The position numbers and the translations under genes were made by a program. Below, in pieces: positions 2,586 through 20,157 of a DNA stretch of 22,847 bases (position 1 is its first letter; every line of letters starts with the position of its first letter). The notes below the pieces were generated by a model that was not told the origin of the DNA, ran no database searches, and saw nothing but the letters and a program-made list of their open reading frames with translations. Source of the stretch: a virus; IMG/VR virus record IMGVR_UViG_3300008259_002295, positions 1 to 22,847 of that record. The stretch is one strand, 5' to 3'.

Positions 2586-5500
2586 TTATTCTCCAATCAA
2601 TCTAGCGAATAGAATGTCGTATGCTGCTTGAGCATTAGCATTTCCTTGCGCTAACTGCTGTAGTTGTGTTTTGATATTTGTTCTCAATAGGTCCTTATAG
2701 CTCTGAGCGGTTTCGGTATTGCCATAGACGTTATCTCTAGCATTTTGATAACTATCAAAGGCTTGGCTCATCTGGCTTAGGATTGCTCGTGTTGTAGGCG
2801 AGGTAGTAACAGTTTTATCATTGAGCATTAAACGCAAATCGTCGTATGCCCGAAGGCGACGGATTTGAGACTCTGCACCCTTGCCTAGTTCTTCCTGAAG
2901 CATAGGACGTGAGCCAAGGAACTGCTCTTTCCAAGTTGCAAACTGATCGCGTAGTTGGCGCTTTGCTCCGTCTGAGTATGTAACAGCAAGTTGAGATTCA
3001 AAAGCATCGCGCTGCGAATAATAGATTTGCTCATCTTTAGCTGTCTGTACTTCACGCAAGAAGTCCTGAAGAGTTTTGTTCTCTTTTAATCCTGATTTGT
3101 AAAGCAACTTGTAAGCATCGAAGTTGAAGTCACCTTCACGTGGCATTAGGAATACTCCACCTTCGCGGTACTTCTTGAGTAATCCCTCGTTCTGCTGAAT
3201 CCATCCAACGGATTTATCTACAGAGCGTGCTGCTAGTACCGAAGTATTGTCTGATTCAGATATGGTATATGGCATCTCATCTGGGAAAAGCCTAATCCAC
3301 TCTTGAGTAGCTTTATCAATACTGCCATACTTGTTGATGAGTTGATTGAATACCTGCTTATATGATGTGCGCTCGTTGTCACGAACCCACTTTGATAGGT
3401 CACTTTTGAGCGTAATCTGCGGTGATGCTGGAGCGATAAAACCAAATAGCGCTCTAACTGCTAGAACAGAGATAGTTGCAGACTGAACCTTATCCTGATA
3501 CGCTGCCAATTCTCCAGGTGTTGGTGGAATCTCCTGATTAGTCTCTGGATCAATCTTTGGCTTGAGTCCGTGACCTGAAGCCTCAAGATATGTAACGGCC
3601 TTTCGGAATGCTGATGCGTATTGCGAGTTACGCTCGTCTTTATTTAGCGTTGCAAGAATACGATTGACGTGACCTGGTAATACTGCGCTAATCATTGGTT
3701 GGTCTACGCCATAAGTTCCAAGGAATGTTGCTTCTAAGTCCTTCAACTGTGGCACAACATTGAATAGCATCTTCATTGGCATAGAGGCCAATGGGCCAGC
3801 AAAGGTTGGGAACAGCGAATCTGGGTTCATTGAAGGTGTAATCATCTTCAACTTACCGCCGAACTCGACAGGCATTGGCACTTGGAATGCAGTCGGTACA
3901 CCAAAGGCCTTCATAACGCCATTCATAACCTTATAGACGGGCGTCAGTCCAGGATAAAAGAAGTACTGGTCTCCGTTGTCATCTGTCTGTACGAAGCCTG
4001 AATGCGCTACGCCCTCATAGGTAAGCGATGCACGGGTTAGCGCCTCTGGATTGTATTTAACAGTACGATAGATACGGCGATAGAAGTCTTCGGTTGCACG
4101 ATAGAAACGGGCAAAGTTACGAGCAGACATAGCCAGCTGGCTACGGACTGCTGGATTATCTACGAATGCAAGTACACGGTCTTTTGCTAGGTCTTCTGCA
4201 ATAGATACGATATGAGCCTTGGCTGCATCCTCAGCTACTTTGAGTTCAGCACCTGTTTTACCAGCAGTGAACTGATTCATAATGCGCTTTTCGAAGCCAG
4301 TAGCACGCATATCTTTACGAATGCGAATCATTGAGTCAATGACAAGTGGCTCACGTGAGAAGCGAGCGTTAGCTTCACCCATATAATCCCAAGTTTTATC
4401 AACCAAAGACGCTGCAAAATTATCGCTATCTGAAACAGGTACAAGAGTTGGTCCAGATACCCACTCTGGGGCTAGTTGTGGATTCATCTTATTAGGCAAA
4501 TCTTCTAGGCGGAAGTCTTTAGTTGAAATGACCATATCGCCTTTTTCGTTACGGAAGCGAATCTTATTCAGTAGGTCATCATTTATGTCGCCATTACGCT
4601 TAGAAACAAGGTTCTTGGTCGCCTGAACTACGCGCTCTGCGTGAACGCGGGTAGATGCACCAGTGTCATACAACGAGAATTTACTGCGCTCTTTGAGTGG
4701 TAATTTATCTAAGTATTCTTGAACAGCGTCTACTGCTCTTTTGCCTTCATTGTCTAGATTCATAAGGGCAATGCGACCTAAATCATCCCTAGAAACAATA
4801 CCAATTTGAACCATCCAACTAATACGAGATTCATCAGATGCCACTGGATTGAACTCTGAATAGTCTTTTAAGCCTGTAGATTGTTTGAGTTTCTTCCCAT
4901 TGATTTCAATGGCACCCACTTTGCCAAACTTAGATACATCGGTAGTGGCGTTAAGGTACTGATCTCCACCACGAAGGGCATTCTTGCCACCCTCTGCTAC
5001 GGCGCCAAGTGTGTCATCTAGGTATCCGTGTTCTGCAATCTCAGCAAGAAGTTCTGAGCCTTCTTTGTCGAGCTTACCCACTACCTTAGACTCAAGGATG
5101 GCTCTAGCCATAACCTTTTGTGCTGCTCTTGTATCTCCGGATGCAATGGCTTCATCCATCAATTTAGAATACTCTTCACTTTGCTTGCGATATACAAGTT
5201 TATTGATAAAGCCTAGATTGTTTGCGCCCTTTGCTTGACGTAGTTTTGTAGAAAGTAAGCGTGCTTTTGCCACACCCCAAGGTGAATCTCCTACAGCAAG
5301 ATGAAGCATCAAGTCTTCTGCTGCGTTACGTACTGGGAATCGAGGACCAGCAAGGGTACCGATTGACCAATATGAAGTCATACGCTCTGCCCACTTCTGG
5401 TGGGATACTCCCATAACTCTGTCAATGATGCCGGAACGAGCAGCTAATCTATCTAGGTCAATAATGGATGGGACTGCCATATTTGGCGACAACTGATATC

Positions 5501-7280
5501 CAAAGATAGCCATCTGTTGCCCATTAAATTCTGCAGGATTTGTAACTTCGGTTACTTCATCACCAAATTCATTTACCTTACGCTTTACGATTGATGCGGC
5601 ATATTGTTTATTGCGGCCAGAGCCAGCAAACTCATCCATATAAGACTTACCTGATGCACTCTTTGATACACCACGTATCTCAGCGACAGTATTCCATAGA
5701 CCTGCGAAGATTTGCTTACGCTGACCCTCATTACCAGCAGCAAAAGCCTCTGAAATTAGACGAGAATGGTAGCGGGTATTACCTAAACGAGCTAAGCGAT
5801 ATACCTGAGTTGCAGCATCTGATGCGTTAACGTCAAAGAACCCATCCTTGAAGTAAGGAATGGTTGTGAACTTGCGTGCAAAGCGATCAAGACGACCTTG
5901 AATTTGAGCAAGTGGCATACGATATCCGCCGTCTGCGCCCTTGAATCGTCCTACTTGACGTTCTGCTTGAGCAATGTCCTCAGCACGGGTAGTAATACCA
6001 GTAGCAATATCTTGATATTCTGGTCCAGTACCATATAAAGCCTGAACAAGTTTCTGACCTACGCTATCAATGTTAAAAACTTTGTCAGTTGCCGTAAAGA
6101 AATTGATACGAGCCTTGCGTGCTGCATCTAAAGTTGGGATAAGTGGGGTCTTTCTAGCTGATTGGCCAGCTAGAATTGTTTTTATATCTGTCTGATTCTG
6201 TAAATAAGCCTTAGCAGTGTCAGCATTCTTAACGCCTGCACTGATAAATTCATCAACGGCGGCGGGACCAAACTCTGGCGCTATACGCCGTAGCGCTGTT
6301 GAGGCCTTTTCTGCAGCAACAATATCTTTTGCAGCACGAGCATTCTTAAGATTATCAAGTTCTTTGCCGTAGGTATCAAAAAAGTTAACTACGCCTTTGT
6401 TTTCAAATACTCTGTCTACGCTCTTGACATCACCAGCAGTGGCCATAAGGTTGCGGCCATAGGTAAACTTTTCTTTTCCAAGGACATTGAAAAGCAAGAA
6501 GTTTCCAGCATCATAGGATTTCTTTGCTTTACCAAGTATAAGTGTAGGATCTGCAAATACTCGATAAGCAGCATCTGTAAATCCTGAGATGCCTTTGTAT
6601 AAGAAGCCAGAACTTTCTAAGCCTTCTGTAAGCAATAAGTTTGCTAGTTGACGACCAGGTGAGTACTTAGCAGCCTGTACTTTATCAAGCGCATCTTGGA
6701 ATAATTTGTCTTCACCTTTGGCTGCAGTTGAAGCAATAAGTTTTTCTGCATCTGTTCCGCCGGCAATAATCTCATCCAACGGTATGCCCTGAGCAACCTT
6801 GACTGCTACGTTAATACGGTCTGTACCATATTTATTCTTAGCGTCAGCAAGACGAGTTGGACTAAATACTTGGTCGCCCTTGTCATTTGCCATCTTAAAG
6901 GCTTTATCTAAATCTACGCCTTGGTCGATTGCGATTGCTCCAGTGCGGTAGACGCGGGTCATAAAGTCAGATACTTCGTTTAGTGCGCCAAATACACGAC
7001 CAATACTTTGCTTGACACCTTGGCCTGCATAATGGATTGCTCCACCAAGCCAGCCGCGCTTTTGCTCTGGTGCCTCTGAATCATCTCCACCAAAGAGTGC
7101 TACGTGAGCAGTCTGTTGATCTTGTGGTAACGATTGAAACTTCTTCTGAGCTACCGGAGCAGGCAGCGCTAAAAGGTTCTTGTGGGAATCTAATAACTTC
7201 TGCAAGCCATCAACTTGAGCCTTTTGCTTTGGCGTAAGATTGGCTTGTGCTGCTGCTGATGTAATAGAATTTTGTGGCAC
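2586..7280 (-). CDS. Giant putative internal virion protein (1564 aa)
   Basis: This is the largest gene in the window. It starts with GTG at 7280, sharing one base with the upstream TAG, with a CGAGG ribosome site ahead. The first 60 residues are rich in Ala, Gln and Lys. The body is mixed helical, with no signal peptide and no obvious transmembrane hairpin. Around residues 1050-1165 lie an aromatic/Arg-rich helix (ARFYRATEDFYRR), a YFFYPG motif and a Pro/Met-rich stretch ending MNPDSLFPTFAGP. This set of motifs recalls very large uncharacterised proteins of environmental phages, but I cannot assign a named domain. The last 250 residues are rich in Gln, Lys and Asp. The size, the place after portal and the lack of visible enzyme motifs suggest a capsid-internal or ejected protein. 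A polyvalent or tail-length protein is an alternative. The uninterrupted frame argues against decay. Confidence 0.8.
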   Translation of the reverse strand: MPQNSITSAAAQANLTPKQKAQVDGLQKLLDSHKNLLALPAPVAQKKFQSLPQDQQTAHVALFGGDDSEAPEQKRGWLGGAIHYAGQGVKQSIGRVFGALNEVSDFMTRVYRTGAIAIDQGVDLDKAFKMANDKGDQVFSPTRLADAKNKYGTDRINVAVKVAQGIPLDEIIAGGTDAEKLIASTAAKGEDKLFQDALDKVQAAKYSPGRQLANLLLTEGLESSGFLYKGISGFTDAAYRVFADPTLILGKAKKSYDAGNFLLFNVLGKEKFTYGRNLMATAGDVKSVDRVFENKGVVNFFDTYGKELDNLKNARAAKDIVAAEKASTALRRIAPEFGPAAVDEFISAGVKNADTAKAYLQNQTDIKTILAGQSARKTPLIPTLDAARKARINFFTATDKVFNIDSVGQKLVQALYGTGPEYQDIATGITTRAEDIAQAERQVGRFKGADGGYRMPLAQIQGRLDRFARKFTTIPYFKDGFFDVNASDAATQVYRLARLGNTRYHSRLISEAFAAGNEGQRKQIFAGLWNTVAEIRGVSKSASGKSYMDEFAGSGRNKQYAASIVKRKVNEFGDEVTEVTNPAEFNGQQMAIFGYQLSPNMAVPSIIDLDRLAARSGIIDRVMGVSHQKWAERMTSYWSIGTLAGPRFPVRNAAEDLMLHLAVGDSPWGVAKARLLSTKLRQAKGANNLGFINKLVYRKQSEEYSKLMDEAIASGDTRAAQKVMARAILESKVVGKLDKEGSELLAEIAEHGYLDDTLGAVAEGGKNALRGGDQYLNATTDVSKFGKVGAIEINGKKLKQSTGLKDYSEFNPVASDESRISWMVQIGIVSRDDLGRIALMNLDNEGKRAVDAVQEYLDKLPLKERSKFSLYDTGASTRVHAERVVQATKNLVSKRNGDINDDLLNKIRFRNEKGDMVISTKDFRLEDLPNKMNPQLAPEWVSGPTLVPVSDSDNFAASLVDKTWDYMGEANARFSREPLVIDSMIRIRKDMRATGFEKRIMNQFTAGKTGAELKVAEDAAKAHIVSIAEDLAKDRVLAFVDNPAVRSQLAMSARNFARFYRATEDFYRRIYRTVKYNPEALTRASLTYEGVAHSGFVQTDDNGDQYFFYPGLTPVYKVMNGVMKAFGVPTAFQVPMPVEFGGKLKMITPSMNPDSLFPTFAGPLASMPMKMLFNVVPQLKDLEATFLGTYGVDQPMISAVLPGHVNRILATLNKDERNSQYASAFRKAVTYLEASGHGLKPKIDPETNQEIPPTPGELAAYQDKVQSATISVLAVRALFGFIAPASPQITLKSDLSKWVRDNERTSYKQVFNQLINKYGSIDKATQEWIRLFPDEMPYTISESDNTSVLAARSVDKSVGWIQQNEGLLKKYREGGVFLMPREGDFNFDAYKLLYKSGLKENKTLQDFLREVQTAKDEQIYYSQRDAFESQLAVTYSDGAKRQLRDQFATWKEQFLGSRPMLQEELGKGAESQIRRLRAYDDLRLMLNDKTVTTSPTTRAILSQMSQAFDSYQNARDNVYGNTETAQSYKDLLRTNIKTQLQQLAQGNANAQAAYDILFARLIGE

Positions 7281-7684
7281 TACATACCTCGCGCTAATGC
7301 ACGTTGATAAAGAATTTCTACTTCTCCACTTTGGTCATAGGGAAGCATTCTTGATAAAATGTCAGATAATTTTTCTTGAGTTGTTGGAGCCATTGCTAAA
7401 GTCTCTGGCCCAGGACCTGCTCCTAGAGGAATACCTGATGTGATTGGTTCATTTGGGCGCTCTGATGGAGCATATAAAGGTGTAATAGGCGTCTGGCTTG
7501 GAGCCATACCCATCTCGCTACGTGATGTTGGGCGTACATCTGGTGTTCTAGCAAGTGGAGCGCCTGCTTTGATAGCGGCTTGCTCTACACCTGCGCCATA
7601 TTCTGGCGATTGAAATGAAAGTCCATCGGTTCTTGTGGAGAATTTACCTGGACCTGCTGGGCCTGCTAACGGACCTCTAGCCAT
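7280..7684 (-). CDS. Small Pro/Gly/Ala-rich virion-module protein (134 aa)
   Basis: The protein is low in complexity. Residues 1-100 are rich in Gly, Pro, Ala, Ser and Thr and are probably disordered. The last 30 residues (from about TTQEKLSDILSR) are likely helical. ATG at 7684 lies inside the end of the preceding gene (8-base overlap), and its TAG overlaps the GTG of the 1564-aa gene by one base. This tight coupling ties it to the virion module. A scaffold, head-decoration or assembly-adaptor role is plausible but not demonstrated, and no known domain is visible. Confidence 0.65.
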   Translation of the reverse strand: MARGPLAGPAGPGKFSTRTDGLSFQSPEYGAGVEQAAIKAGAPLARTPDVRPTSRSEMGMAPSQTPITPLYAPSERPNEPITSGIPLGAGPGPETLAMAPTTQEKLSDILSRMLPYDQSGEVEILYQRALARGM

Positions 7685-7895
7685 TTGGATCCTCCATCTT
7701 CTCTAAATCTTGTGTGAATTGTTCCCAAGCCTTATTAACTTGAGTCTTTCTAATTGCGTTATATGTTGCCAAATCTAAAAGTTCTTCTGCGAATACGTGA
7801 ATTGCGCTCATTAAATTATGAAACAGTCCTGCGAATACAACTAAAGTATCAGCGAGACGGACAGAGCGTGGAACATAATCTGGTTCTTCTTTCAC
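7677..7895 (-). CDS. Small hypothetical protein (72 aa)
   Basis: GTG at 7895 is preceded by GAGAGG at a normal distance. Residues 13-45 are hydrophobic but interrupted by His, Asn, Glu and Asp, so an amphipathic helical hairpin is more likely than a true membrane span. The C-terminus is charged (EKMEDPNG). It overlaps the 134-aa gene by eight bases and follows the 43-aa basic peptide by 25 bases. The position between portal and the giant virion protein suggests a minor assembly or head-tail protein. I do not recognise the family. Confidence 0.6.
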   Translation of the reverse strand: MKEEPDYVPRSVRLADTLVVFAGLFHNLMSAIHVFAEELLDLATYNAIRKTQVNKAWEQFTQDLEKMEDPNG

Positions 7896-7920
7896 GCTCT
7901 ATCCTCTCGTATTAAATACA

Positions 7921-8052
7921 CTAAGCCTTCTTGCCTTTACGAGCCTTAGCAGCATAGCCGAAATCGACTTTACCGCCTTTTGGCTTCTTCATATCTTTCT
8001 TGCCTTCTGTTGGCTTTGCCATAGAAGCCTTTGCACGACCACCTTTTTTCAT
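7921..8052 (-). CDS. Very basic 43-aa peptide between portal and virion genes
   Basis: ATG at 8052 is preceded by GGGAGG with a six-base spacer, one of the strongest ribosome sites in the window. The 43-residue product begins MKKGGRAKASMAKPTEGKK. About one third of its residues are Lys or Arg, spread through Gly/Ala-rich sequence. It has no Cys and no hydrophobic segment. It lies 12 bases after the portal stop, in the same direction. A short, strongly translated, Lys-rich peptide in a head module could bind DNA or RNA or act as a capsid cement or scaffold peptide. This is inference from composition and position. Confidence 0.7.
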   Translation of the reverse strand: MKKGGRAKASMAKPTEGKKDMKKPKGGKVDFGYAAKARKGKKA

Positions 8053-8064
8053 ATCACACCTCCC

Positions 8065-9804
8065 TTACCCTGCAATAGATGCGAGTAACGACGCTATATC
8101 TGGACGAGCGCCAGCAGCAGGGGCCGCACCAGTCATCATTTCTGGAGTTGGCTGCGAGGCAGGGGCTGGGGCCATACCTGCTGCTGGAACTTGTGCGCCC
8201 ATCATTTCTGCTGGGACTTCTGGTTGAGGCTCTGGAGTAAATACTTCTTCTATGATTGTCTCAAGTTGCTTACCCTTTTGACGACCCTTGATTACTTCGG
8301 CGATTCTGGAAACGATTTGAGAAGGATCTTGACCTTGTGCTGCAAGCGCAGGAATAGTCTGGGCGTACTGAGCAACAGCAACGCGCAGAGAATCGCGCAT
8401 CTCTTCAATATCCACACGCTGTTCTTCTTGAGTGACATTTAACTCCATCGGAATCTCACGACGTACATAGTCGCGGCTTACAAGTTTGTCGCTACGCATC
8501 TGTAGCAAAGCAATGATTGCGTTGTTTGGATTGAGGCCGGACATAATTCCGTAGCGAACATCTACTCCATATTCGCTTCTGATGTCACGGCTTGGCACAT
8601 ACTTCATATTGAATGGAGTGCCGTCATCTACTCCCTTGATTTCCTTGGTCATATTGCCAAAGATTTTTTCGTCAATCTCAAAGCAGAGTGATGTTAGTTC
8701 TGTAAATAGGCGTGCAAACTGTGCTTGTGCTGCACGTACCTGAGTATCAAAGCCAGCTTGGAGTGCTTGAACTCCACGACCTGTGATAACAGAGGCATCG
8801 ATATTACCGCTGCGAACCTCTGGGTAACGTGAACCTAGACGTAGTTCACGCTCTAGTACACCAGATTCTGTGAAGACTCCGTTTGGAAGTTCTAGCGGCA
8901 CACGGCGGATTGCTTGGGGATTAGCTGAACGCATAATCGCGTCAGGGCCAAGTGCAAGTTCTTGGACATCTTGCGGAATAGCAATCGGTGCTTGAATGGA
9001 TTTCTCTGCTGCCTGAATCTGCAAGACAGCGAAACGCGCACGTGCTAGTTGTACCGCTAGAACATCATCGAATTGACCGCGTGCTTCGCCATCAATAGAT
9101 GAACGTACTGCTACACGCGCTAGGCATTTGCCGATTGCATTGGGAAGATTAGAGAGAACCAAGTTATTACGATCGGGTAGATAGATTAAGTCTTGGTCTT
9201 TGTCGTGATAGCGAACCATAGTGATGTATGGCGAGCCAGAGGCGTACTGAGTCTTAACAACAATCTGATTGTAGAACTCTGGGTATTGCATAGCCAAAGA
9301 TTCTGCATCGGTATTGATGACTTGAGTGATTGAGATACAACGACCAAAGCGGTCCATCTCAGGATAGACACCAAATGGATTGAGCAAACGGATGCGTGGA
9401 TTGTTTGTCTCATAATCCATCTCAACGATAGATGGCAACATACCGTAGGTGTTAAACCAGTCAGCACCTTGATACATCTGAATCTGCAGTTCTGATGATG
9501 AGATGTAATAGTTTGCAATGCGTGTTCTAGTATCTGCGCTCTTTCGTGCAGAGTCAGAGACCATATTGGTAGCAGCGCAGTTAAACGATGGCAGTGGTGC
9601 CATTACCTCTGCTAGGTCACGAGCTGCAACATCGACGAAGTTTGCAACCAGAGGCTTTGGGTACTCTTCGGAGAACATCGCAGGATAAACCTTGCTGATG
9701 TCACCTTGACGTACTGATAGCACGTCACGCATACGTTGATCGCGGGCTGCGTACTTCGACTGAAGACGCGATACCTTAGCGATTACCTCTTTGGTTGTTA
9801 GCAC
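8065..9804 (-). CDS. Portal protein (579 aa)
   Basis: Portal rings form the DNA entry channel of the capsid and dock the terminase. The call rests on position (ten bases after the large terminase, same strand), on length typical of portals, and on its general pattern: an N-terminal helical region (MLTTKEVIAKVSRLQSKYAA), an alpha/beta middle with the PFGVYPEMDRFGR segment, and a long helical stem and crown region about residues 330-500. Residues about 520-579 are rich in Pro, Ala and Met and are probably a disordered tail. The start is GTG at 9804, with AGGAG 7-8 bases upstream overlapping the terminase stop. Sequence motifs in portals are weak, so the call is contextual. Confidence 0.78.
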   Translation of the reverse strand: MLTTKEVIAKVSRLQSKYAARDQRMRDVLSVRQGDISKVYPAMFSEEYPKPLVANFVDVAARDLAEVMAPLPSFNCAATNMVSDSARKSADTRTRIANYYISSSELQIQMYQGADWFNTYGMLPSIVEMDYETNNPRIRLLNPFGVYPEMDRFGRCISITQVINTDAESLAMQYPEFYNQIVVKTQYASGSPYITMVRYHDKDQDLIYLPDRNNLVLSNLPNAIGKCLARVAVRSSIDGEARGQFDDVLAVQLARARFAVLQIQAAEKSIQAPIAIPQDVQELALGPDAIMRSANPQAIRRVPLELPNGVFTESGVLERELRLGSRYPEVRSGNIDASVITGRGVQALQAGFDTQVRAAQAQFARLFTELTSLCFEIDEKIFGNMTKEIKGVDDGTPFNMKYVPSRDIRSEYGVDVRYGIMSGLNPNNAIIALLQMRSDKLVSRDYVRREIPMELNVTQEEQRVDIEEMRDSLRVAVAQYAQTIPALAAQGQDPSQIVSRIAEVIKGRQKGKQLETIIEEVFTPEPQPEVPAEMMGAQVPAAGMAPAPASQPTPEMMTGAAPAAGARPDIASLLASIAG

Positions 9805-9814: not shown

Positions 9815-11560
9815 CTAAATAAACTGGCGTTCTTGCTCTGCCAGTAGATTGTCAATGTTTACTACGATTCTCTTGCCACGTTCGTGACGAGACAAAAATG
9901 GATTCTTCAAGTGGTGCGTCTGGTGTATTCCTTGATTGAGCATCTCACGCGCTCTAATCTCACAGAACCAGAGAGCCATCACCATATCGGTCTTACCCTT
10001 GGTCGTCGGAGACCAGGTGATAAGTTGTTCTATTAAACTCTTGATATTTTCTGTTTGATCCGAAGGAAGATGGATAAGATTATCTCGATGGTGTTTACCA
10101 TCAGGCTGCTTCGTTCCAAACAGAGTGGACATACTGGCAACTCCGAATCCTGCATCCCACTTGTTGTTTCCGGTGTGGTGTTCACGAAGTAAAATTCCTT
10201 TGGTAGCCAAGAATTGGCGGATGCCTTCATCCTGAGTCAAGAATGACTGGAAGGCATTTCGCTCTACGACCCACTCTGAAGGAGTGTAGACGTTGGACCA
10301 ATCGATAATTAACTGTCTAATTTGAGCAGGTGTCGGACGCGTAATCTTGATAGCATCAACGATATATCTCTTATGAGTAACGCGATCAACAGCGTAACAG
10401 ACAGCGGCAGTGTCACCGACCATTGCAGGATCGAGGCCACAGACAAAAGAAAAGCCATTGAGGTCACGAGGATGTCCAGGGGAGCCAGCAACCAGACGAC
10501 CTGCCTTACGCATCCCATCGATGCTACCCTTGACGCAAATCGGGTCAAAGATGGCGTCATCTGAAATATCTTGCTGCTGATAGATAAGCGCCCAGGTGCT
10601 TGCATCCATCGCTTGGCGCTCAGCAAAGAGGTGTTTACCATTCCAACGCGGATATAAGTCTTCTTCGTTTTTATCATTTTCAGTCTGCCCGTCGAATGGT
10701 TGATCTGAATAAGGCCAGAGCGTAACCCACTTGTTATAGTCCTCGTGGGTCTCCAGCAGGGCTGGCATCGCTAAATAGGTCCAAGGGACTTGTCCACCAG
10801 GGTATCTATCGGGGTTACGCAATTCTTTGTATAAATCTACTGCAGCTACATCGACAATAATCATATCAGCACGCTTACCGTAAATCTGACCGCCGATACC
10901 TACAGCTTCAATGTTGGGATCCTTCTCAGAGGATTCACGGAGTTCATCACCAAAGACTACGCGGGTGGCCTGCCAGGAGGCAGACTTAGAGTTAAAGCCT
11001 ACACCGGCAGCATAGGCCGTCTGTAAGCCTTCATACATCGGATGGGTAAGTCTTTGCTTGATAGCGTAGAGAAAGTCTGCTGCTAACTGCTGAGTCTGGG
11101 AGACTATCAGAACTCTGAAGTTGGGGTTCTGGGCTACCTTCCAGGTTACATAGTCAACGGTAATGGTGATGGACTTGGCGTGGTTGGGCGGGATGTTGAT
11201 AAGGATGCGGTTATTAGCCAGACCCTTCTCATACTTCATCGAGGGATGGTGCCAGCTAGGGTCACGACCTTCGATGACATCTACCAAGTTCTGCTGGTGG
11301 TCAAAGGTGGATTGGTGAAGAAAGCGTTTTCTAAACTCTGCAAAGTCGATGTCGTGGACATCGGCGGAGGCGTAGGTCTTATCTTTTAACCCTAGCCTAG
11401 TTCTGTCTATCTTGTCAGCAAAGACCTTATCGGTCCTGCGGTAATACTCATAGGACTTGTAGGATCTACCAGCGGAGGATACTGCCTGTTCTACAGTTAA
11501 GCCATCTGCTACACCTTGCAGGATAACACGCTTGGCTATATCAGCGGAGGTATCAGCCAT
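9815..11560 (-). CDS. terL: Terminase large subunit, apparently lacking part of its ATPase core (581 aa)
   Basis: This is the ATP-driven packaging motor and nuclease. Walker A is at residues 123-131 (IPPNHAKSI). Walker B begins at 232 (DMIIVD). The RNase H-like nuclease shows D377 (GLDPA), E433 (ERNAF) and D525 (KTDMV). After D237 the chain runs straight into VAAVDLYKELRNPDRYP. In related terminases, as I recall them, Walker B is followed by a second acidic residue, about 40 residues and a GTR coupling motif before that segment, so an in-frame loss is suspected near 10850. Residues 15-60 resemble a small-terminase-type helix-turn-helix, and no separate small subunit is seen. ATG at 11560 has only a weak GGAT upstream. 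It is the first gene of the leftward virion operon. Confidence 0.92.
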   Translation of the reverse strand: MADTSADIAKRVILQGVADGLTVEQAVSSAGRSYKSYEYYRRTDKVFADKIDRTRLGLKDKTYASADVHDIDFAEFRKRFLHQSTFDHQQNLVDVIEGRDPSWHHPSMKYEKGLANNRILINIPPNHAKSITITVDYVTWKVAQNPNFRVLIVSQTQQLAADFLYAIKQRLTHPMYEGLQTAYAAGVGFNSKSASWQATRVVFGDELRESSEKDPNIEAVGIGGQIYGKRADMIIVDVAAVDLYKELRNPDRYPGGQVPWTYLAMPALLETHEDYNKWVTLWPYSDQPFDGQTENDKNEEDLYPRWNGKHLFAERQAMDASTWALIYQQQDISDDAIFDPICVKGSIDGMRKAGRLVAGSPGHPRDLNGFSFVCGLDPAMVGDTAAVCYAVDRVTHKRYIVDAIKITRPTPAQIRQLIIDWSNVYTPSEWVVERNAFQSFLTQDEGIRQFLATKGILLREHHTGNNKWDAGFGVASMSTLFGTKQPDGKHHRDNLIHLPSDQTENIKSLIEQLITWSPTTKGKTDMVMALWFCEIRAREMLNQGIHQTHHLKNPFLSRHERGKRIVVNIDNLLAEQERQFI

Positions 11561-11838: not shown

Positions 11839-12035
11839 TAATAAATACGGACAAACCGAACAAAATGATCGACCCCCTCATTTAGTCGAGAAATTTTGTG
11901 AGGGTACATACTATACACTCCTCCGTTGTTCACTAATCTGGGGTCTGTGTTTTGCGCCCGTAGGCGCAACCCCCACCCCCTGCCCCGATAGCGTGACCCG
12001 TAGGGGAATGATGAGGGCTGTCACTAAGTAACATA

Positions 12036-12070
12036 GCCTGTGGATAACTCTGCCCTGCCTGTGGATAACT
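12036..12070 (+). promoter_or_regulatory. Two perfect DnaA boxes in a 14-bp direct repeat
   Basis: GCCTGTGGATAACT occurs at 12036-12049 and again at 12057-12070. Each copy contains TGTGGATAA, the exact complement of the classical DnaA box TTATCCACA. The spacing is 21 bp start to start, two helical turns, so both boxes face the same side of the helix. This suggests recruitment of host DnaA to a phage origin, or DnaA-dependent control of the rightward operon that starts about 110 bp downstream. Confidence 0.75.
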
Positions 12071-12108
12071 TCGTTATGAAACTGTTATCGTGTCTCTATT
12101 GTATAGGG

Positions 12109-12135
12109 TAGACAGACCTAGTGTTTTACGATAAT
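12109..12135 (+). promoter_or_regulatory. Candidate promoter of the rightward operon (weak)
   Basis: GATAAT at 12130-12135 resembles a -10 element. TAGACA at 12109-12114 resembles a -35 element, but the spacer is only 15 bases. A start near 12142 would place the CCTATCGG repeats at the 5' end of the transcript. An alternative -10 is TATAGG at 12102-12107. This is inference from motif similarity only. Confidence 0.3.
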
Positions 12136-12140
12136 TTTCT

Positions 12141-12165
12141 CCTATCGGTAGGAAATACCTATCGG
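12141..12165 (+). promoter_or_regulatory. Leader direct repeat and alternative hairpins before the first rightward gene
   Basis: CCTATCGG occurs at 12141-12148 and 12158-12165. CCTA-TCGG-TAGG (12141-12152) can form a small hairpin, while TAGG (12149-12152) can instead pair with CCTA (12158-12161). The second repeat ends just before the AAAGG ribosome site of the gene at 12178. The arrangement could be an operator pair or a small RNA switch affecting translation. Confidence 0.4.
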
Positions 12166-12177
12166 AAAGGTTAGAAA

Positions 12178-12342
12178 ATGACACTAGAACAAGCAAAGCA
12201 AATCGTAGGAAATCAACCCGATTGGGCGCTTAAGAATATGGTTAAAGCGTTGAAAATGCTGCCAATGATGAACACCGCACAAGATGAGCAGCGCCTAGCA
12301 GCAGCGCTCGTCGTGTTGAAATCAAGAAAAGCAGGGCGCTAA
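12178..12342 (+). CDS. Small hypothetical protein, first gene of the rightward operon (54 aa)
   Basis: ATG at 12178 follows an AAAGG ribosome site. The product begins [16 protein letters not shown] and is predicted to be helical, with alternating hydrophobic and basic residues and a basic C-terminus (KSRKAGR). It has no Cys and no membrane span. Its stop shares bases with the next start (TAATG). The helical, compact make-up would suit a small DNA- or protein-binding factor. I have a general impression of similar short phage proteins but no family name. As the first gene after the DnaA-box region it is probably expressed early. Confidence 0.7.
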
Positions 12343-12548
12343 TGGCTAGTTTTGCCGATAAACAAGAGACTATCGCAAGAATACAAGAGGGCTATCACTA
12401 TTACGATTACACCTGTGAAAGATTCGCTAATGGATCGTGTGAGATTCTAGTTTATCCAATAGCTGGCGTAGTAAATAGATTCAAGACTATCCCTTGCGAG
12501 GGAGCGCCTATGCGCTACCGATTCGATTCACTAGGGAGAGCTATCTAA
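12342..12548 (+). CDS. Small hypothetical protein (68 aa)
   Basis: ATG at 12342 overlaps the previous TAA. The 68-residue protein has an N-terminal helix (ADKQETIARIQEGYHYY), then a likely beta-rich part with two Cys (C25 and C33) and a third near residue 52. It is soluble, with no membrane segment. Its TAA overlaps the next ATG (TAATG). The family is not recognised. Its place in a chain of stop-start-coupled small genes is typical of phage host-takeover operons. Confidence 0.65.
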   Translation: MASFADKQETIARIQEGYHYYDYTCERFANGSCEILVYPIAGVVNRFKTIPCEGAPMRYRFDSLGRAI

Positions 12549-12703
12549 TGCCTAAGAATACCGCGCAAGAGATAACTCTAATAGATCAAGAGGGACAAGA
12601 ATGGGCGAGGGCTACGCTATCGCTCACCCGCCTAAACGCATTATTAAGAGAGTATAAAAAACAAGGAATACACCTAACACCTAGAGAGAGAGTGAGCGCA
12701 TAA
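12548..12703 (+). CDS. Small hypothetical protein (51 aa)
   Basis: The frame is open from 12494, but the likely start is ATG 12548. It forms a TAATG overlap with the previous gene and gives an MPKNTAQEITLID start, parallel to the MPKPMSAV start of the next gene. The product looks like a beta hairpin followed by a helix and a basic tail (RERVSA). It ends in the VSA-stop junction that also ends the genes finishing at 13305 and 13460. No function is recognised. Confidence 0.65.
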   Translation: MPKNTAQEITLIDQEGQEWARATLSLTRLNALLREYKKQGIHLTPRERVSA

Positions 12704-12885
12704 TGCCTAAGCCTATGAGCGCGGTTAATCTAATTCAATGCCTATCGGGGGAACTGTATTGTGATCCTGCCCTGCTAGTGGAGACAATCAAGGAAGACGG
12801 CGAGACCCTCGCCCTAGTGCGTAGATACGGCAAGGGAGAAGAAGACTACGCAACAGTATTAGAGAGAGTGTCGCAACTAGTCTAG
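12703..12885 (+). CDS. Small hypothetical protein (60 aa)
   Basis: ATG at 12703 overlaps the previous TAA, and GAGAG lies upstream. The protein has two Cys (C13 and C20) in LIQCLSGELYC and an acidic C-terminal half (EDGETLALVRR, then EEDYATVLERV). It is soluble and of mixed alpha/beta character. It is the last gene before an 87-base gap that contains alternative hairpins. The family is unknown. The shared TAATGCCTAAG sequence at its start and at 12546 suggests duplication or shuffling of gene ends in this operon. Confidence 0.65.
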   Translation: MPKPMSAVNLIQCLSGELYCDPALLVETIKEDGETLALVRRYGKGEEDYATVLERVSQLV

Positions 12886-12897
12886 GTGCTTTACTAT

Positions 12898-12951
12898 GGG
12901 GGAGAGTGTGCTATATGCTCTCCCTCGTAGTAGCTCACCTAACAAGAGGGA
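12898..12951 (+). promoter_or_regulatory. Mutually exclusive hairpins in the 87-base gap
   Basis: GGGAGAG (12900-12906) pairs with CTCTCCC (12918-12924). TCCCTC (12921-12926) can instead pair with GAGGGA (12946-12951). The two stems share bases 12921-12924, so only one can form. No T-tract follows either. A processing site, a weak attenuator or a protein-binding site before the gene at 12973 is possible. Confidence 0.35.
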
Positions 12952-12972
12952 GCTAATTAGGAAAGGGAAGAA

Positions 12973-13305
12973 ATGAGCAGAACAACAGTAGAACAGATGA
13001 AGCAAGAAATACGCACCGCCCTATCCAATGGGGAAGAAATTGAAGAAATCAAAGACCGCTCGGGCGAGTGGGTGGACGGCTATCTGCCGGTGTATTACAA
13101 CCGCATTGTTGAAGAGTGGCAGGAAATGCCTAGCGAATACAACAACAGAGGGAGCGCTGAGTTAGGAATAGGACAGGAGATAGATATTTACAACCTTATG
13201 TCTCTTGATCTTTATCTTTATTACACCGACCAATTCTCCGAAGTGTTGGACGAGGTAGAGGAAGAACTCAAAGAGGAAGAAGAAAGCGAGGAGGTAAGCG
13301 CATAA
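12973..13305 (+). CDS. Acidic hypothetical protein (110 aa)
   Basis: ATG at 12973 is preceded by AGGAAAGGGAAG, a strong ribosome site that marks a new translation block after the gap. The protein is very acidic. Residues 1-30 look helical, residues 45-80 contain many Tyr (VYYNRIVEEW, then LYLYYTDQFS), and the last 25 residues are mostly Glu. Such highly acidic small phage proteins sometimes mimic DNA, but no family is recognised here and that reading is only inference. The stop overlaps the next ATG. Confidence 0.7.
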   Translation: MSRTTVEQMKQEIRTALSNGEEIEEIKDRSGEWVDGYLPVYYNRIVEEWQEMPSEYNNRGSAELGIGQEIDIYNLMSLDLYLYYTDQFSEVLDEVEEELKEEEESEEVSA

Positions 13306-13474
13306 TGAGCGAAATCTGCCTAGTCTGCTCATCAGACAAAGACGATAATGAACTGATTATCTGCTCAGAATGTAACGAGCAGGATAACGGGAGCGCGTGC
13401 GGTGCTTGTGGCGAATGGAATAACGGCGAGCATAACTGCTCAGAGGAGGTAAGCGCATAATGAGCGAGATCTGC
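13288..13474 (+). repeat. 32-bp direct repeat at the two ends of the zinc-ribbon gene
   Basis: The copies at 13288-13319 and 13443-13474 are identical except for one base (A or G in the third position of the Glu codon). Each copy covers a ribosome site, the codons for EEVSA or its end, the stop-start overlap, and the first codons MSEIC. A shorter version, AGCGCATAATG, also lies at 12695-12705. The repeats bracket the 51-aa gene as a cassette. Confidence 0.8.
13305..13460 (+). CDS. Small zinc-ribbon protein (51 aa)
   Basis: ATG at 13305 overlaps the previous TAA, with GAGGAGG upstream. The 51 residues contain three CxxC pairs (C5-x2-C8, C20-x2-C23, C33-x2-C36) and a final H-x-C at about 43-45, enough ligands for two zinc sites. 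The rest is acidic. Such a miniprotein could bind RNA, DNA or a host protein. It shares its start (MSEIC) and end (EEVSA) with its neighbours through a duplicated 32-bp junction. The phage Mu mom gene is controlled by a small zinc-finger protein, Com, and a Mom-family gene ends this operon. Any functional parallel is speculative. Confidence 0.75.
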   Translation: MSEICLVCSSDKDDNELIICSECNEQDNGSACGACGEWNNGEHNCSEEVSA

Positions 13475-13714
13475 GTGAAGTATCAAGCGACAGACCAAGA
13501 GGGCAACGTGCTAGAAAATCACAGTACCTACTCACACAGTTTTGACAGCGTACAAGAGGCGGAGGCTTGGCTAGAGGAGGAGGGCGATATGTTCCTAACC
13601 GCTTGCAACATTGACTCAAAGATATTGGAGGGCGACCAGTTTGCCGATGAGTTGTTGATTGTTCGGGTCAATGGCTTTCCTGTAATGAAAGAGGAGGTGC
13701 TCGTCAATGTTTGA
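13460..13714 (+). CDS. Small acidic hypothetical protein (84 aa)
   Basis: ATG at 13460 overlaps the previous stop, and GAGGAGG precedes it. The product begins MSEICVKYQATDQEG and looks like a small alpha/beta protein: beta strands at 4-12 and 18-25, an acidic helix (VQEAEAWLEEEG), and a C-terminal strand with VNGFPV. It has Cys at 5 and 49 but no pattern for a metal site. The first residues match the upstream zinc-ribbon gene because of the duplicated junction. Function is unknown. It overlaps the next gene by eight bases. Confidence 0.7.
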   Translation: MSEICVKYQATDQEGNVLENHSTYSHSFDSVQEAEAWLEEEGDMFLTACNIDSKILEGDQFADELLIVRVNGFPVMKEEVLVNV

Positions 13715-13829
13715 CATCTATGTCGGAGGGTGGCAAGCCACCGCGCAGGTTTTAGCTATCGCCCTACTAATCGGGGCGGGACTGTGGGTAATGAGTAAAA
13801 TCGAAATCAACGAGAGAGAGGGAGAGTAA
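13707..13829 (+). CDS. Single-span membrane miniprotein (40 aa)
   Basis: ATG at 13707 overlaps the end of the previous gene, with GAGGAGG about ten bases upstream. The 40 residues contain one clear membrane segment at about 11-29 (ATAQVLAIALLIGAGLWVM), an aromatic N-terminus (MFDIYVGGW), and a charged C-terminus (KIEINEREGE). By the positive-inside rule the single Lys after the span gives weak topology information. Candidate roles include a holin or antiholin, or an inhibitor of a membrane protein. Its stop overlaps the next ATG (TAATG). Confidence 0.7.
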   Translation: MFDIYVGGWQATAQVLAIALLIGAGLWVMSKIEINEREGE

Positions 13830-13987
13830 TGCCGTCCTGCGGAGTGTGTGGGTGGAACTTTTCAGATCGAACACTAGCAAAGCACGCCGAAACCCCGTGT
13901 GGGGAAGAAAGCGAGAAGGCGGGGAAGGTAACCTATCTTCCCGAAATAGATGACCTAATCAAAATGGAGGAGGAGTTCAATGGATAA
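13829..13987 (+). CDS. CCHC zinc-finger miniprotein (52 aa)
   Basis: ATG at 13829 overlaps the preceding TAA, with GGGAGAG upstream. The ligands C4-x2-C7, H19 and C24 form a compact CCHC finger with a short helix (SDRTLAKHAE). The C-terminal half is acidic (EIDDLIKMEEEF). This resembles a classic single zinc finger, which usually binds nucleic acid or protein. Its stop overlaps the next start by eight bases. It may be a takeover factor or a partner of the Mom-family protein encoded downstream. Both readings are inference. Confidence 0.72.
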   Translation: MPSCGVCGWNFSDRTLAKHAETPCGEESEKAGKVTYLPEIDDLIKMEEEFNG

Positions 13988-14081
13988 GGCAACATTAAAA
14001 GAGTGGCTATTAGACAGACAAGAAAATGGAGATGACGGCACAGGATATAACGACTATAACGAGGAGGAAGCAAGTGAATAA
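13980..14081 (+). CDS. Acidic miniprotein (33 aa)
   Basis: ATG at 13980 follows GGAGGAG at about the right distance and overlaps the previous stop. The 33-residue product has a short N-terminal helix (MDKATLKEWLLDRQ) and a disordered acidic tail rich in Asp, Gly, Asn and Glu. It overlaps the GTG start of the next gene. The short length limits certainty, but the strong ribosome site and the coupled layout support translation. Confidence 0.55.
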   Translation: MDKATLKEWLLDRQENGDDGTGYNDYNEEEASE

Positions 14082-14244
14082 AGAATACTACCAGGCGAAG
14101 GCGGATCTCTGCCGAGATTTAGCTATTAAGCAAATGACAGAGGGAGATAGCAAGGAAGCAGGGGCGAACCTTATCCGTATGGTCAATGCCCTCAATGAAC
14201 TAAACCTAATCAACTACAAGGAGGAGAAAGATGAAGCTCGTTAA
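14074..14244 (+). CDS. Small helical hypothetical protein (56 aa)
   Basis: An upstream ATG at 14026 would give 72 residues, but GTG at 14074 is preferred because GAGGAGG stands about seven bases before it. That start yields MNKEYYQAKADLCRDL. The protein appears to be a pair of amphipathic helices (EYYQAKADLCRDLAIKQM, then SKEAGANLIRMVNALNEL), a common shape for small protein-binding factors. There is no membrane segment. Its stop overlaps the next gene by 14 bases. Confidence 0.65.
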   Translation: MNKEYYQAKADLCRDLAIKQMTEGDSKEAGANLIRMVNALNELNLINYKEEKDEAR

Positions 14245-14461
14245 TTTCTATGAGGTAACAGAGAAGGACGGAACCAACGCCGTATGGGGTGGAGTTAGTG
14301 CGCTTCAAGCGGTTGAGTGGTTCAGAAAGGAGTTAGATAGGAGAGTCTTTGTCTCTATATGGAACGAGGAAGATCCCGAGGAGCCTCGTTTGGTAACGGA
14401 CAAGATAGAGGTATCCTCGCTGGTGCTGGCTACGATTTTAGATGAGAGGGATAAAGCGTGA
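14231..14461 (+). CDS. Small hypothetical protein (76 aa)
   Basis: ATG at 14231 follows AAGGAGGAGAAAG, close to the ideal ribosome site. The 76-residue product has an N-terminal strand (KLVNFYEVTE), a helix (SALQAVEWFRKEL), a strand (VFVSIW), an acidic loop (NEEDPEEPR) and a helical end. It looks like a compact alpha/beta protein of unknown function. Its TGA overlaps the GTG of the next miniprotein by three bases. Confidence 0.7.
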   Translation: MKLVNFYEVTEKDGTNAVWGGVSALQAVEWFRKELDRRVFVSIWNEEDPEEPRLVTDKIEVSSLVLATILDERDKA

Positions 14462-14544
14462 TAATTCTAGGCGTAATAACGATGACGATAATTGCTTACC
14501 TGCTCATAGTATGGGAGGATAATCTCAATGAACGACACAACTAG
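14458..14544 (+). CDS. 28-aa membrane miniprotein
   Basis: GTG at 14458 forms a GTGA overlap with the previous stop, and GAGAGGG lies upstream. The 28 residues are almost entirely a single membrane span (ILGVITMTIIAYLLIVW) followed by EDNLNERHN. An internal ATG exists at residue 9. It overlaps the next gene start by 17 bases. The match between hydrophobicity, ribosome site and stop-start coupling makes it more than a random frame, but its size keeps confidence moderate. It has the same layout as the 40-aa membrane protein at 13707. Confidence 0.5.
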   Translation: MIILGVITMTIIAYLLIVWEDNLNERHN

Positions 14545-14821
14545 AAGGGTGGATACTGCTATCAAGCAGGCAGTTAGACAGCGCAATTATAGACGGGTAA
14601 GAGACCGCGCCTTGAGGCGATTATCTAATCTCTACCCCGACCAATACCGAGAACTTTTGGAGGAGGAGAGGGCTAAAGATGAAGCGCAGGACAAGGTTTG
14701 GCTTGATATTAGTGGCAGGACTCGTGCTGGTATGGGCGCACCAACCCGAACTCGCTCACGTCGAACTACCAAAAGACGTGGCTATAGTGGCAAAAAAGGC
14801 AAGTTGGGAAGAAAAAAATGA
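14528..14821 (+). CDS. Basic hypothetical protein (97 aa)
   Basis: ATG at 14528 follows GGGAGG. Residues 1-50 are helical and Arg-rich (AIKQAVRQRNYRRVRDRALRR, shown here in shortened sense as a run of Arg-bearing helix), with the motif LYPDQYRELLEEER. Residues 55-65 read DKVWLDISGR. Residues 63-97 form a very basic tail of Arg, Thr, Gly and Lys, likely nucleic-acid binding. The last 48 codons overlap the signal peptide region of the lysin gene in another frame. The N-terminal half recalls short phage proteins I have seen, with no named family. It may be a nucleic-acid-binding takeover factor. Confidence 0.72.
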   Translation: MNDTTRRVDTAIKQAVRQRNYRRVRDRALRRLSNLYPDQYRELLEEERAKDEAQDKVWLDISGRTRAGMGAPTRTRSRRTTKRRGYSGKKGKLGRKK

Positions 14822-15095
14822 GAACAGAAGAATCGCCAAAGAATATGCGTGGGTTGCGTTTGGTTGGAAAGGCAGAGAGAGCAAGTGCCTTATCCAATTA
14901 TGGACCCGTGAGAGCAGGTTTGACCACCACGCAAGTAATCAACAGGGAAGCAGCGCTTTTGGAATTGCTCAGCTCCTTAGAGAAAAGAGTCGAGATCCTA
15001 GAATCCAAATACTTAGAGGCCTTAGATACATTTCAGAGCGTTACACAACGCCTTGCCGTGCTCTCGCTTACCACAATAAACGAAATCACTACTGA
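14679..15095 (+). CDS. Secreted lytic transglycosylase/lysozyme-like lysin (138 aa)
   Basis: The enzyme would cleave peptidoglycan glycan strands during lysis. Residues 1-20 form a signal or anchor (KRRTR, then FGLILVAGLVLVWA). The catalytic-type Glu is E78 in LWTRESRFDHHASNQQG, followed by SSAFGIAQLL (92-100) and a C-terminal helix ending near TPCRALAYHNKRNHY. This matches the SLT-type fold in short phage lysins. GGAGGAGAGG precedes ATG 14679. The first 143 bases overlap the 97-aa gene in another frame, and the stop overlaps the next ATG (TGATG). The signal suggests export without a holin, or a signal-arrest-release lysin. No separate cell-wall-binding domain is present. Confidence 0.82.
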   Translation: MKRRTRFGLILVAGLVLVWAHQPELAHVELPKDVAIVAKKASWEEKNENRRIAKEYAWVAFGWKGRESKCLIQLWTRESRFDHHASNQQGSSAFGIAQLLREKSRDPRIQILRGLRYISERYTTPCRALAYHNKRNHY

Positions 15096-15718
15096 TGTAT
15101 GACTATAGGGTAGAGAAATTACAAGCATCTATTGGTAAAGAGTTTGTAAAAAAATACCATTATTCTCACGGCATACATAATGGACCTATGTGTTATGGTT
15201 TATTTAATAAAGATGAACTCATAGGAGTTTGTGCTTTTGCAACTCCCTCTAGTGAAAATGTGTGCGCTAGTGTGTTTGGTGTTGAATATAAAAGGTCTGT
15301 GACTGAATTACATAGGTTAGTTTTATTAGATGAGGCACCAAAAAATAGCGAGTCTTGGTTCATAGTAAGGGCTTTGAAAAAATTGAAAGAAGATAGACCT
15401 TACTATGATGCCGTGCTGTCTTTTGCTGATGCCACAGAAGGACACAGGGGGGTTATTTATCAAGCGACCAACGCTATTTATAGTGGCACTTCAGGCAAGG
15501 CTACGTTTTTCCTCGACCAAACTGGGAGGCTTAGACATCCACGTCAAAATGGAATAAATATAACTAAAGAGGAGGCGGAAAGTAGGGGGTGGAAGCCAGT
15601 TAAAAGAGAGGGAAAGCATAGGTATCTCTACTTATTACCTAATGATAGGATACATAAGAAAGAGTTATTAAAAAGATTATTACTAAAGCCTTTGCCTTAC
15701 CCTAAAGATGTGATATGA
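15095..15718 (+). CDS. Mom-family DNA adenine modification protein (207 aa)
   Basis: Mom proteins are GNAT-fold enzymes that turn adenine in DNA into a carbamoylmethyl derivative and so protect phage DNA from restriction. Recognised features are KKYHYSHG near residue 20, ELHRLVLL at 71-78, NSESWFIVRAL at 84-94, LSFADATEGHRG at 108-119, IYQATNAIYSG at 121-131, and LRHPRQNGINIT near 146-157. The arrangement matches annotated Mom-like proteins of actinophages. It starts at a TGATG overlap and ends just before a terminator. It is visibly AT-richer than its neighbours: two 60-base lines inside it are 30% and 35% GC, against 50% in a line upstream. That suggests separate acquisition. In Mu, mom expression is tightly controlled. 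Confidence 0.85.
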   Translation: MYDYRVEKLQASIGKEFVKKYHYSHGIHNGPMCYGLFNKDELIGVCAFATPSSENVCASVFGVEYKRSVTELHRLVLLDEAPKNSESWFIVRALKKLKEDRPYYDAVLSFADATEGHRGVIYQATNAIYSGTSGKATFFLDQTGRLRHPRQNGINITKEEAESRGWKPVKREGKHRYLYLLPNDRIHKKELLKRLLLKPLPYPKDVI

Positions 15719-15727
15719 TATAAACTT

Positions 15728-15766
15728 AAAGCCTCGCAGTTATACCCTTTCCTGCGGGGCTTTTTT
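15728..15766 (+). terminator. Rho-independent terminator of the rightward operon
   Basis: GCCTCGCAG (15731-15739) pairs with CTGCGGGGC (15752-15760) with one G-T wobble, extended by AAA/TTT, and is followed by six T (15761-15766). It lies just after the Mom-family stop. The leftward FmdB gene ends inside the same T-tract, so the element separates converging operons. Confidence 0.88.
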
Positions 15767-15944
15767 ATTTGTCTTTGTCGTTTGAGTAAAAGCCTGAGCC
15801 TCGGAAGGAGATAGAGGGCGAAGCCCAGACTCTACTCATTAGTTCACCGCAGTCAGCACAGGAGGGAGCGCTAGCTTCGGCGTGTATAGAACGCTCAACC
15901 AAGAGGGTAGTTGAGCATTGAGGACATTTATATTCATAGTTCAT
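15765..15944 (-). CDS. FmdB-family zinc ribbon protein (59 aa)
   Basis: ATG at 15944 forms an ATGA overlap with the previous stop. The sequence starts MNYEYKCPQC, contains a second pair SCADCG near 29-33, and ends with SISFRGSGFYSND. These are the hallmarks of FmdB/Zn-ribbon regulatory proteins: N-terminal YEYKC-x2-C, C-x2-C, and an FxGxGFY end. FmdB-type proteins are small putative regulators. Several phages carry them, with no firm biochemical role. It is the last gene of the leftward replication operon. Its stop lies in the terminator T-tract. Confidence 0.85.
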   Translation of the reverse strand: MNYEYKCPQCSTTLLVERSIHAEASAPSCADCGELMSRVWASPSISFRGSGFYSNDKDK

Positions 15945-16318
15945 AGGGCAAAGGCGTAATCTAGGTGTAGGAAGCCAACGAGTTTCATAATCTTGCGAGT
16001 GTTAGTGAACTCTGTGGTCGCTGGCATACGACGCTCAGACCACGCAGGCTCAGGCACACGCGATAAATCAAAAGCATAGATACCTTGTGGTGTGGAGTTG
16101 ATGTAGTACGGAGTCAGCTCGCCTGCTTGGTTGATAAGTCTGCGGTATTTCATCTCTTCAATGAGTAGATCGGGATAGTGTGTATGCCTACACTTGAGTT
16201 CAATGTATAAGCCTTTACCTAAGGTGGTGCAGTCAAAGGAATCGTAAGCCCCTTCGGATTTCTCTAGGTCGGGGAAGTGTTTGTCTTTGAGGTAGTCGAA
16301 GAGTTCTTGTTCTTTCAC
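15941..16318 (-). CDS. PD-(D/E)XK nuclease-like protein (125 aa)
   Basis: The likely active-site pattern is D29 (YDSFDCTT) with E40-L-K42 (GLYIELKCRH), spaced as in PD-(D/E)XK nucleases. A helical N-terminus (QELFDYLKDKHFPDLEKSEG) precedes it. Lengths near 125 aa fit small resolvase-like or endonuclease folds. The start is GTG at 16318, overlapping the previous TGA, and the stop overlaps the FmdB ATG. A structural or nuclease-dead family member remains possible. Together with the resolvase-like and Cas4-like genes this makes three candidate nucleases in one operon. Confidence 0.6.
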   Translation of the reverse strand: MKEQELFDYLKDKHFPDLEKSEGAYDSFDCTTLGKGLYIELKCRHTHYPDLLIEEMKYRRLINQAGELTPYYINSTPQGIYAFDLSRVPEPAWSERRMPATTEFTNTRKIMKLVGFLHLDYAFAL

Positions 16319-16947
16319 TGGTAAGGACTCTCCCCACCGAGTAGGTTCTGTAGTCTGCGAAGTGAGTGGCTACACCTGCGATCAGCAGTAGAGATAGCGC
16401 AGTTGAGATACTCAGACATTTCTTGAAGGGTGAGGTTCTCGTGGTATCTCTTGATAAGAATATCTTTATCAGTTATATCTAGCTTGAGGTAAGCCTTCTT
16501 GATGTCAATAAGCATAGCTAAAAGGTTGCCACCTTCGGCTGGAGCCGATTGCTTCTTAGGCTGTCCGTCGTTGATAAGGTTCTGAGCAGACTCTAATACT
16601 GTGTCGTTGATGATTGAGGCAATAACGTAGGGCAGAAGTTGAGCAAGGGTGAGAGTGTCATAGAAGGACTCATCTCCTGGTTTATATCCGGAACGAATAG
16701 CTTTCTCTTTGCGGCAGTATCTCTCACAATGGCGACGCATCTGCCAAGCGATACGCTTCTCATTGACCACACGTTCAACTGAGTTCTCAACAGAGAGCAG
16801 ATTGTTGAAGTGTTCTATGCGTGAGTAGTACCAGGTATAACACTCCTGCTTGATGTCATCTCGTTCAACGAACTGTCTATACCTGCGGTATATGGAGTTC
16901 GATACGCTGGCTACAAGATCAGGGACGGCTGGGTGTAGGTCGTTCAT
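16315..16947 (-). CDS. Sigma-70-like / helix-turn-helix transcription protein (210 aa)
   Basis: The C-terminal part (about 172-199) reads LTLQEMSEYLNCAISTADRR and continues as a region-4-like helix-turn-helix of sigma factors, preceded by LDITDKDILIKRYHEN, which matches the usual entry to region 4. The N-terminal 20-60 (IYRRYRQFVERDDIKQECYTW) resembles region 2-type helices. A phage sigma-like factor would redirect host RNA polymerase to late promoters, such as those of the virion operon. ATG at 16947 has GAGAG upstream. The gene overlaps the 45-aa ORF by 29 bases and the nuclease gene by four. It could instead be a sigma-fold DNA-binding protein without promoter function. Confidence 0.68.
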   Translation of the reverse strand: MNDLHPAVPDLVASVSNSIYRRYRQFVERDDIKQECYTWYYSRIEHFNNLLSVENSVERVVNEKRIAWQMRRHCERYCRKEKAIRSGYKPGDESFYDTLTLAQLLPYVIASIINDTVLESAQNLINDGQPKKQSAPAEGGNLLAMLIDIKKAYLKLDITDKDILIKRYHENLTLQEMSEYLNCAISTADRRCSHSLRRLQNLLGGESPYQ

Positions 16948-17056
16948 TGGCTCTCTTATTCATCTCTTCTACGTAACGGGCAGCCTTCAATCTCTTTGCT
17001 TCTGCTATTTTCTTTCTGCGTAGCGCAGCCTTGTACCACGAATACTTTTCAGTCAT
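16919..17056 (-). CDS. Small basic protein (45 aa)
   Basis: ATG at 17056 lies inside the end of the Nmad1-like gene. The product begins MTEKYSWYKAALRRKKIAEAK, is one Arg/Lys-rich helix, and ends with a Pro-rich tail (RPTPSRP). It overlaps the sigma-like gene start by 29 bases. No good ribosome site is visible, so translation would be coupled. Without it, 101 bases of the operon would be empty. It may be a nucleic-acid or RNA-polymerase binding peptide. Confidence 0.55.
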   Translation of the reverse strand: MTEKYSWYKAALRRKKIAEAKRLKAARYVEEMNKRANERPTPSRP

Positions 17057-20153: not shown

Positions 20154-20157
20154 TGGG

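Follow-up and report, generated by a model that had tools for sequence, protein, structure and literature searches.

The terminase large subunit (TerL) gene of the phage contig analysed here lacks 114 nt in frame, and very probably this is a deletion private to the contig which is either of very recent origin or not real, and not a new packaging mechanism. The window, the whole stretch of 22,847 nucleotides that was analysed (IMG/VR virus record IMGVR_UViG_3300008259_002295), is part of an uncultured tailed phage whose TerL gene is otherwise normal. The deletion takes out the catalytic carboxylate together with the helix that follows Walker B and that strand of the ATPase domain which ends in the coupling-type GTR motif. 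A TerL shortened in this way should be dead for productive ATP hydrolysis and DNA packaging, and its nuclease domain may still fold. Such a gene could be a genuine null allele of one genome or strain, which would either survive only with the help of a wild-type phage or have been sampled as unpackaged DNA. Alternatively, the deletion could have been introduced by library preparation or assembly; we consider the two sources about equally probable.

The TerL gene and its deletion

The TerL gene (9815..11560, minus strand; 581 codons, with a 38-codon internal deletion) was recognised from its open reading frame, from PHROG 38 and from its relatives. The ORF list shows an uninterrupted frame between 11560 and 9815, and the protein has an N-terminal ATPase domain and a C-terminal RNase H-like nuclease domain. 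The PHROG 38 terminase large subunit profile matches residues 37-549 and covers both domains (E=4.6e-48), Pfam Terminase_6C matches the nuclease part weakly, and fold matches to terminase nuclease domains support the RNase H-like assignment. Aligned identity to the best 80 relatives in the viral collection is 83-91%. A Walker A-type P-loop is present (PPNHAKS, with PP.HAKS invariant in the alignment), the Walker B strand DMIIVD (residues 232-237; 10850..10867, minus strand) is kept and ends at the first acidic residue, and the acidic triad of the nuclease is complete. As 339 of the 340 sites which are invariant among the other 80 relatives are kept by the window protein, the remainder of TerL is, judged by its sequence, fully constrained.

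The missing part lies between D237 of Walker B and VAAVDLYKELRNP and amounts to exactly 38 residues (114 nt), which read DAVTLKNANEFEKQIRWLTQDVRSRLNPTGKLIVIGTR in the sister contig L244. It comprises the second acidic residue, the helix after it and a beta strand ending in GTR; in the window V stands directly after DMIIVD, and the second D, which is the catalytic acidic residue, is deleted together with the coupling-type GTR motif after the post-Walker B strand. Most columns of the missing stretch are identical in all 80 relatives, and they are among the most conserved of TerL. The protein reads GKRADMIIVD and then directly VAAVDLYKELRNPDRYP, with D237 and V238 at about 10849-10850, and the conserved segment that normally stands after the GTR motif (VAAVDLYKELRNPDRYPGG; 10793..10849, minus strand) is fused to Walker B. 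A six-frame motif search of the window found no copy of the missing segment.

The sequence-only reading had described ADMIIVD running straight into the downstream segment at residues 237/238 near 10850, with about 40 residues gone, including an NAxxxEKQ-type segment and GTR. The open frame and the alignments with 80 relatives confirm this junction, and the estimate of length was accurate, the count being 38 residues in 80 of 80 comparisons. The loss of the catalytic carboxylate and of the coupling motif is likewise borne out by the presence of the segment in all 80 relatives, and the conservation of the flanks by the invariant sites mentioned above; the nuclease residues D377, E433 and D525, which the reading had listed as kept, are all three invariant in a 20-sequence alignment.

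The junction itself (GTCGA/TG/TAGC, 10847..10852, minus strand) was placed by alignment with loci L244, L246 and L001 and by an exact cut test. The ends of the deletion (GTCGA/TG...TG/TAGC) share a 2-bp TG microhomology, which lets the cut slide by 0-2 nt, and an 8-bp inverted repeat lies near both of them. A 2-bp microhomology of this kind is found at 19% of TerL positions by chance and an equally long inverted repeat at about 5%, so neither identifies a mechanism.

Distribution of the junction among relatives

Each of the 80 closest loci of the viral collection was aligned to the window TerL, and all 80 have 38 residues more than the window after residue 237; beyond this, the alignments contain a single gap, of 1 aa in one relative. 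Adding a group at 43% identity, and loci retrieved by DNA patterns for the two flanks, brought the loci that span the region to 244 (some of them share contigs, so that the number of independent genes is slightly lower), and 243 of them have the whole segment from the second acidic residue through GTR. In the remaining one, L298, numerous frameshifts disrupt TerL, and the segment is misread and not cleanly deleted. Homologues sharing the junction and offering an alternative acidic residue would have spoken for a natural variant; none of the 244 spanning loci shares the junction, and none combines it with such a residue. A degenerate DNA pattern for the junction matched no other contig among the 2.9 million viral contigs of the collection, and no prophage relatives were confirmed in genome contigs.

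Two records in this set should be noted in their own right. L298 (G012:C1:13888-15759) lies on a 44-kb contig and its TerL contains many frameshifts and stops; it is probably a noisy assembly and serves as a warning for automatic counts. At L073 (G005:C1:3-833), a 49.7-kb contig that holds a full TerL copy opens with a further one that is only partial (76% identity, residues 341-617), and this doubling may reflect a chimera or two phages joined.

The segment is also present in more distant terminases. The TerL proteins of Streptomyces phages of the Manuelvirus group (e.g., Zeigle, 40%) and of Caudovirales sp. ct2KA10 (43%) are collinear with the window protein over 98% of its length and share its Walker A, Walker B and nuclease motifs, and they keep the series DD...NAHExEKQ...GTR which the window lacks. 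T7 gp19 (DNA maturase B, 4bij) and the terminase of phage PhiV-1 (8dgc) match by profile across the ATPase domain with E about 1e-10, and both have a second acidic residue and a GT-type motif where the window has its gap, the profile aligning the DD and GT motifs of T7 gp19 to the missing part.

The sister contig L244 and other near-identical contigs

The most informative comparison is with L244 (IMGVR_UViG_3300027816_003506, 7093 bases), a contig from another metagenome that was retrieved with a pattern made from residues almost unique to the window (THEDYNKW). Over 12023-16940 the two sequences are 100% identical, and in the shared TerL DNA only 5 of 1461 nt differ, all of them synonymous, in addition to the deletion. 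The 487 residues that the two TerL proteins share are the same and the neighbouring genes are at 100% DNA identity, whereas L244 has the 38 residues and the window does not. The presence of the intact segment in a near-identical contig means that the deletion is private to the window contig. As no decay has followed it, we infer from these sequences that it arose very recently or is an artefact of the library or the assembly.

Together with L258, L287 and L164, L244 covers most of the window. No indels were found against L258 over 4010-9341 or against L164 over 12023-22847, and the one gap against L287, of 1 nt, is near the end of the L287 contig. The exceptions are the TerL deletion and the intergenic DNA upstream of TerL; no other gene of the window has a private deletion relative to these contigs.

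The main upstream difference is an intergenic block (11927..12022) of 96 nt which is unlike the about 235 nt found in L244; the DNA flanking it on either side is near-identical, and L164, up to the point where it ends, follows L244. By sequence this is a second strain difference close to TerL, an exchange of alleles confined to the DNA between the leftward structural genes and the rightward ones. We considered that the contig might be chimeric at 12022/12023, where L164 and L244 diverge from it, and rejected this: the window matches L244 again from 11926 leftwards, which indicates a local allele difference and not a joining of unrelated phages.

Structure models and known terminases

In an AlphaFold2 model of the intact protein of L001 the segment that is missing from the window forms a helix (245-262) and a strand (263-273) of the ATPase domain. 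The best fold match of this model is the PhiV-1 terminase 8dgc (E=7e-15); it also matches T4 gp17 (3cpe, E=3e-10), which has the same ATPase plus nuclease layout, as well as the T7 gp19, D6E and Sf6 terminases. In T4 gp17, mutation of the catalytic ATPase residues, including even conservative swaps in Walker B, or of the coupling motif abolishes ATPase stimulation or packaging (PMC3012670). The catalytic carboxylate and the coupling motif, which T4 gp17 has and for which they are essential (PMC3012670), are both absent from the window TerL.

The mean pLDDT is 65.5 for intact L001 and 58.0 for the window protein, both models thus being of low to moderate confidence, and the 38-column alignment gap may itself lower the confidence of the deletion model. 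In blocks of 10 residues the values fall from 68-88 to 46-75 over 121-180 and from 63-78 to 35-48 over 211-240, and the nuclease core of the window protein stays near 80. Confidence drops most clearly in the ATPase region and is held in the nuclease core, but the models are modest and part of the drop may come from the gapped alignment. They agree with the loss of a core strand of the ATPase and do not by themselves prove misfolding.

Origin of the deletion

Three options had been proposed from the sequence, namely a real variant which packages differently, a defective genome and an assembly collapse. The first is strongly disfavoured by the intact L244, by the lack of any other viral contig with the junction and by the lack of a relative that combines the junction with an alternative acidic residue, which leaves a defective genome or an artefact as the remaining pair. 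Collapse in the strict sense, mediated by a repeat, was rejected as unlikely, as the ends share only the 2-bp direct microhomology, with the 8-bp inverted repeat near them. Two shared base pairs are shorter than any assembly k-mer, and some read must consequently have carried the junction.

One account of such a read, to which we give a little less than an even chance, is that it was chimeric or deletion-bearing, arising from a polymerase jump or a ligation, and was assembled amid strain variation, so that no phage has the gene. In other samples, too, sister contigs have an end or an error within TerL: L244 ends at window position 10100, and L287 starts at about 10106 with its 1-nt frameshift near that end, which suggests that assembly is difficult here. 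The full constraint on the rest of TerL and ends sharing no more than what chance often supplies also fit this origin. Against it, a de Bruijn assembler needs junction-bearing reads and there is no long repeat to collapse, and the remaining contig has no other error of this kind against its near-identical counterparts. Moreover, the TerL SNPs and the intergenic block set the window apart from L244, which indicates a strain assembled from its own reads.

Just as probable is a true null allele that arose by spontaneous deletion in a single natural phage genome or a minor strain, which would be packaging-defective and either helper-dependent or sampled as intracellular DNA. No assembly error is required; short microhomology is often seen at the ends of spontaneous deletions, the inverted repeat near both ends is a further point in its favour (the frequency of such repeats in TerL being as given above), and no substitutions have built up in the protein, as expected if the event is recent. 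On the other side, a null terminase should be purged fast and its sampling at assemblable coverage would take luck, and no second contig of the viral collection has the junction.

That the protein is a functional variant, either as a motor whose shortened ATPase remains active or as a nuclease or regulator only, is very unlikely. The kept nuclease residues and the conservation of nearly all remaining residues speak for such a variant, and so does a length that is a multiple of three with a clean open frame; the latter would be required of a functional variant and has a 1-in-3 chance under a null allele or an artefact. This counts against our preferred explanation and is the main reason why the functional reading keeps the small probability that it has. 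Against it stand the sister strain L244, whose protein is identical outside the gap and has the segment, the absence of the junction from all 244 relatives, the fact that long relative records mostly carry a single TerL gene, and the removal of what the models place as a strand of the ATPase domain, the equivalent residues being essential in T4 gp17 (PMC3012670). If the motor did work, it would run counter to the rule by which a viral packaging ATPase requires both a catalytic carboxylate and the core strand bearing the coupling motif.

The TerL SNPs and the upstream block which separate the window strain from L244 also leave room for a strain-specific allele, a second point against our preferred explanation. 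That such an allele is stable and still used in packaging, e.g., as a nuclease or structural subunit mixed with wild-type TerL of a co-infecting phage, we hold to be just as improbable as a functional variant; if true, the phage would be a packaging parasite or would have a motor with a remodelled ATPase core. Equally improbable is that the segment is supplied elsewhere in the genome, by a gene that has been split or moved or by a further copy of TerL. In favour of this, the contig is a 22.8 kb fragment and relatives reach 33-50 kb, so that part of the genome lies outside the window; against it, no piece of the segment occurs in the six frames of the window, the window has no second TerL copy, and 12 of 14 longer relative records contain exactly one TerL match (L073 and L298 being the exceptions).

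We retain a private in-frame deletion, very recent or not real, as the explanation, and on the sequence evidence we file the gene as a defective copy of TerL, presumably without activity, and not as a working terminase. No new biological system is seen here, which is not to say that the deletion must be an artefact. The practical lesson is that a clean in-frame deletion in an essential gene of a single metagenome contig should be compared with near-identical contigs before any biological reading.

Neighbouring genes

General decay of the genome was rejected as a context for the deletion. The portal protein gene (8065..9804, minus strand) is intact, with 95% identity to L001 and 99.8% to L287 and no gaps in either alignment; the small gene beside it at 7280-7684 is intact with no indels against the near-identical contigs; and for a 1564-aa protein and the left-end genes, alignments with most of their closest relatives are full-length, with ordinary gaps.

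Several other genes of the window were annotated in passing. A gene at 15095-15718 (plus strand) encodes a Mom-family DNA modification protein (Pfam Mom, E=9e-39), which suggests that the phage DNA may be modified. Just upstream, three overlapping ORFs lie on the same strand at 14528-15102 (plus strand), encoding a basic 97-aa protein, a transglycosylase-like 138-aa protein and a 94-aa product; each has tblastn matches in relatives such as L007, and they may be overlapping genes of a lysis region, or the matches may be an echo, in other frames, of conserved DNA. A peptidase gene of the Proteasome/HslV family is found at 21617-22183 (minus strand; Pfam Proteasome, E=3.9e-6; PHROG 1040 peptidase HslV family, E=4.5e-21), and at 20158-20502 (minus strand) the last 50 residues of a 114-aa ORF match a C-terminal piece of the class II ribonucleotide reductase family (PHROG 364).
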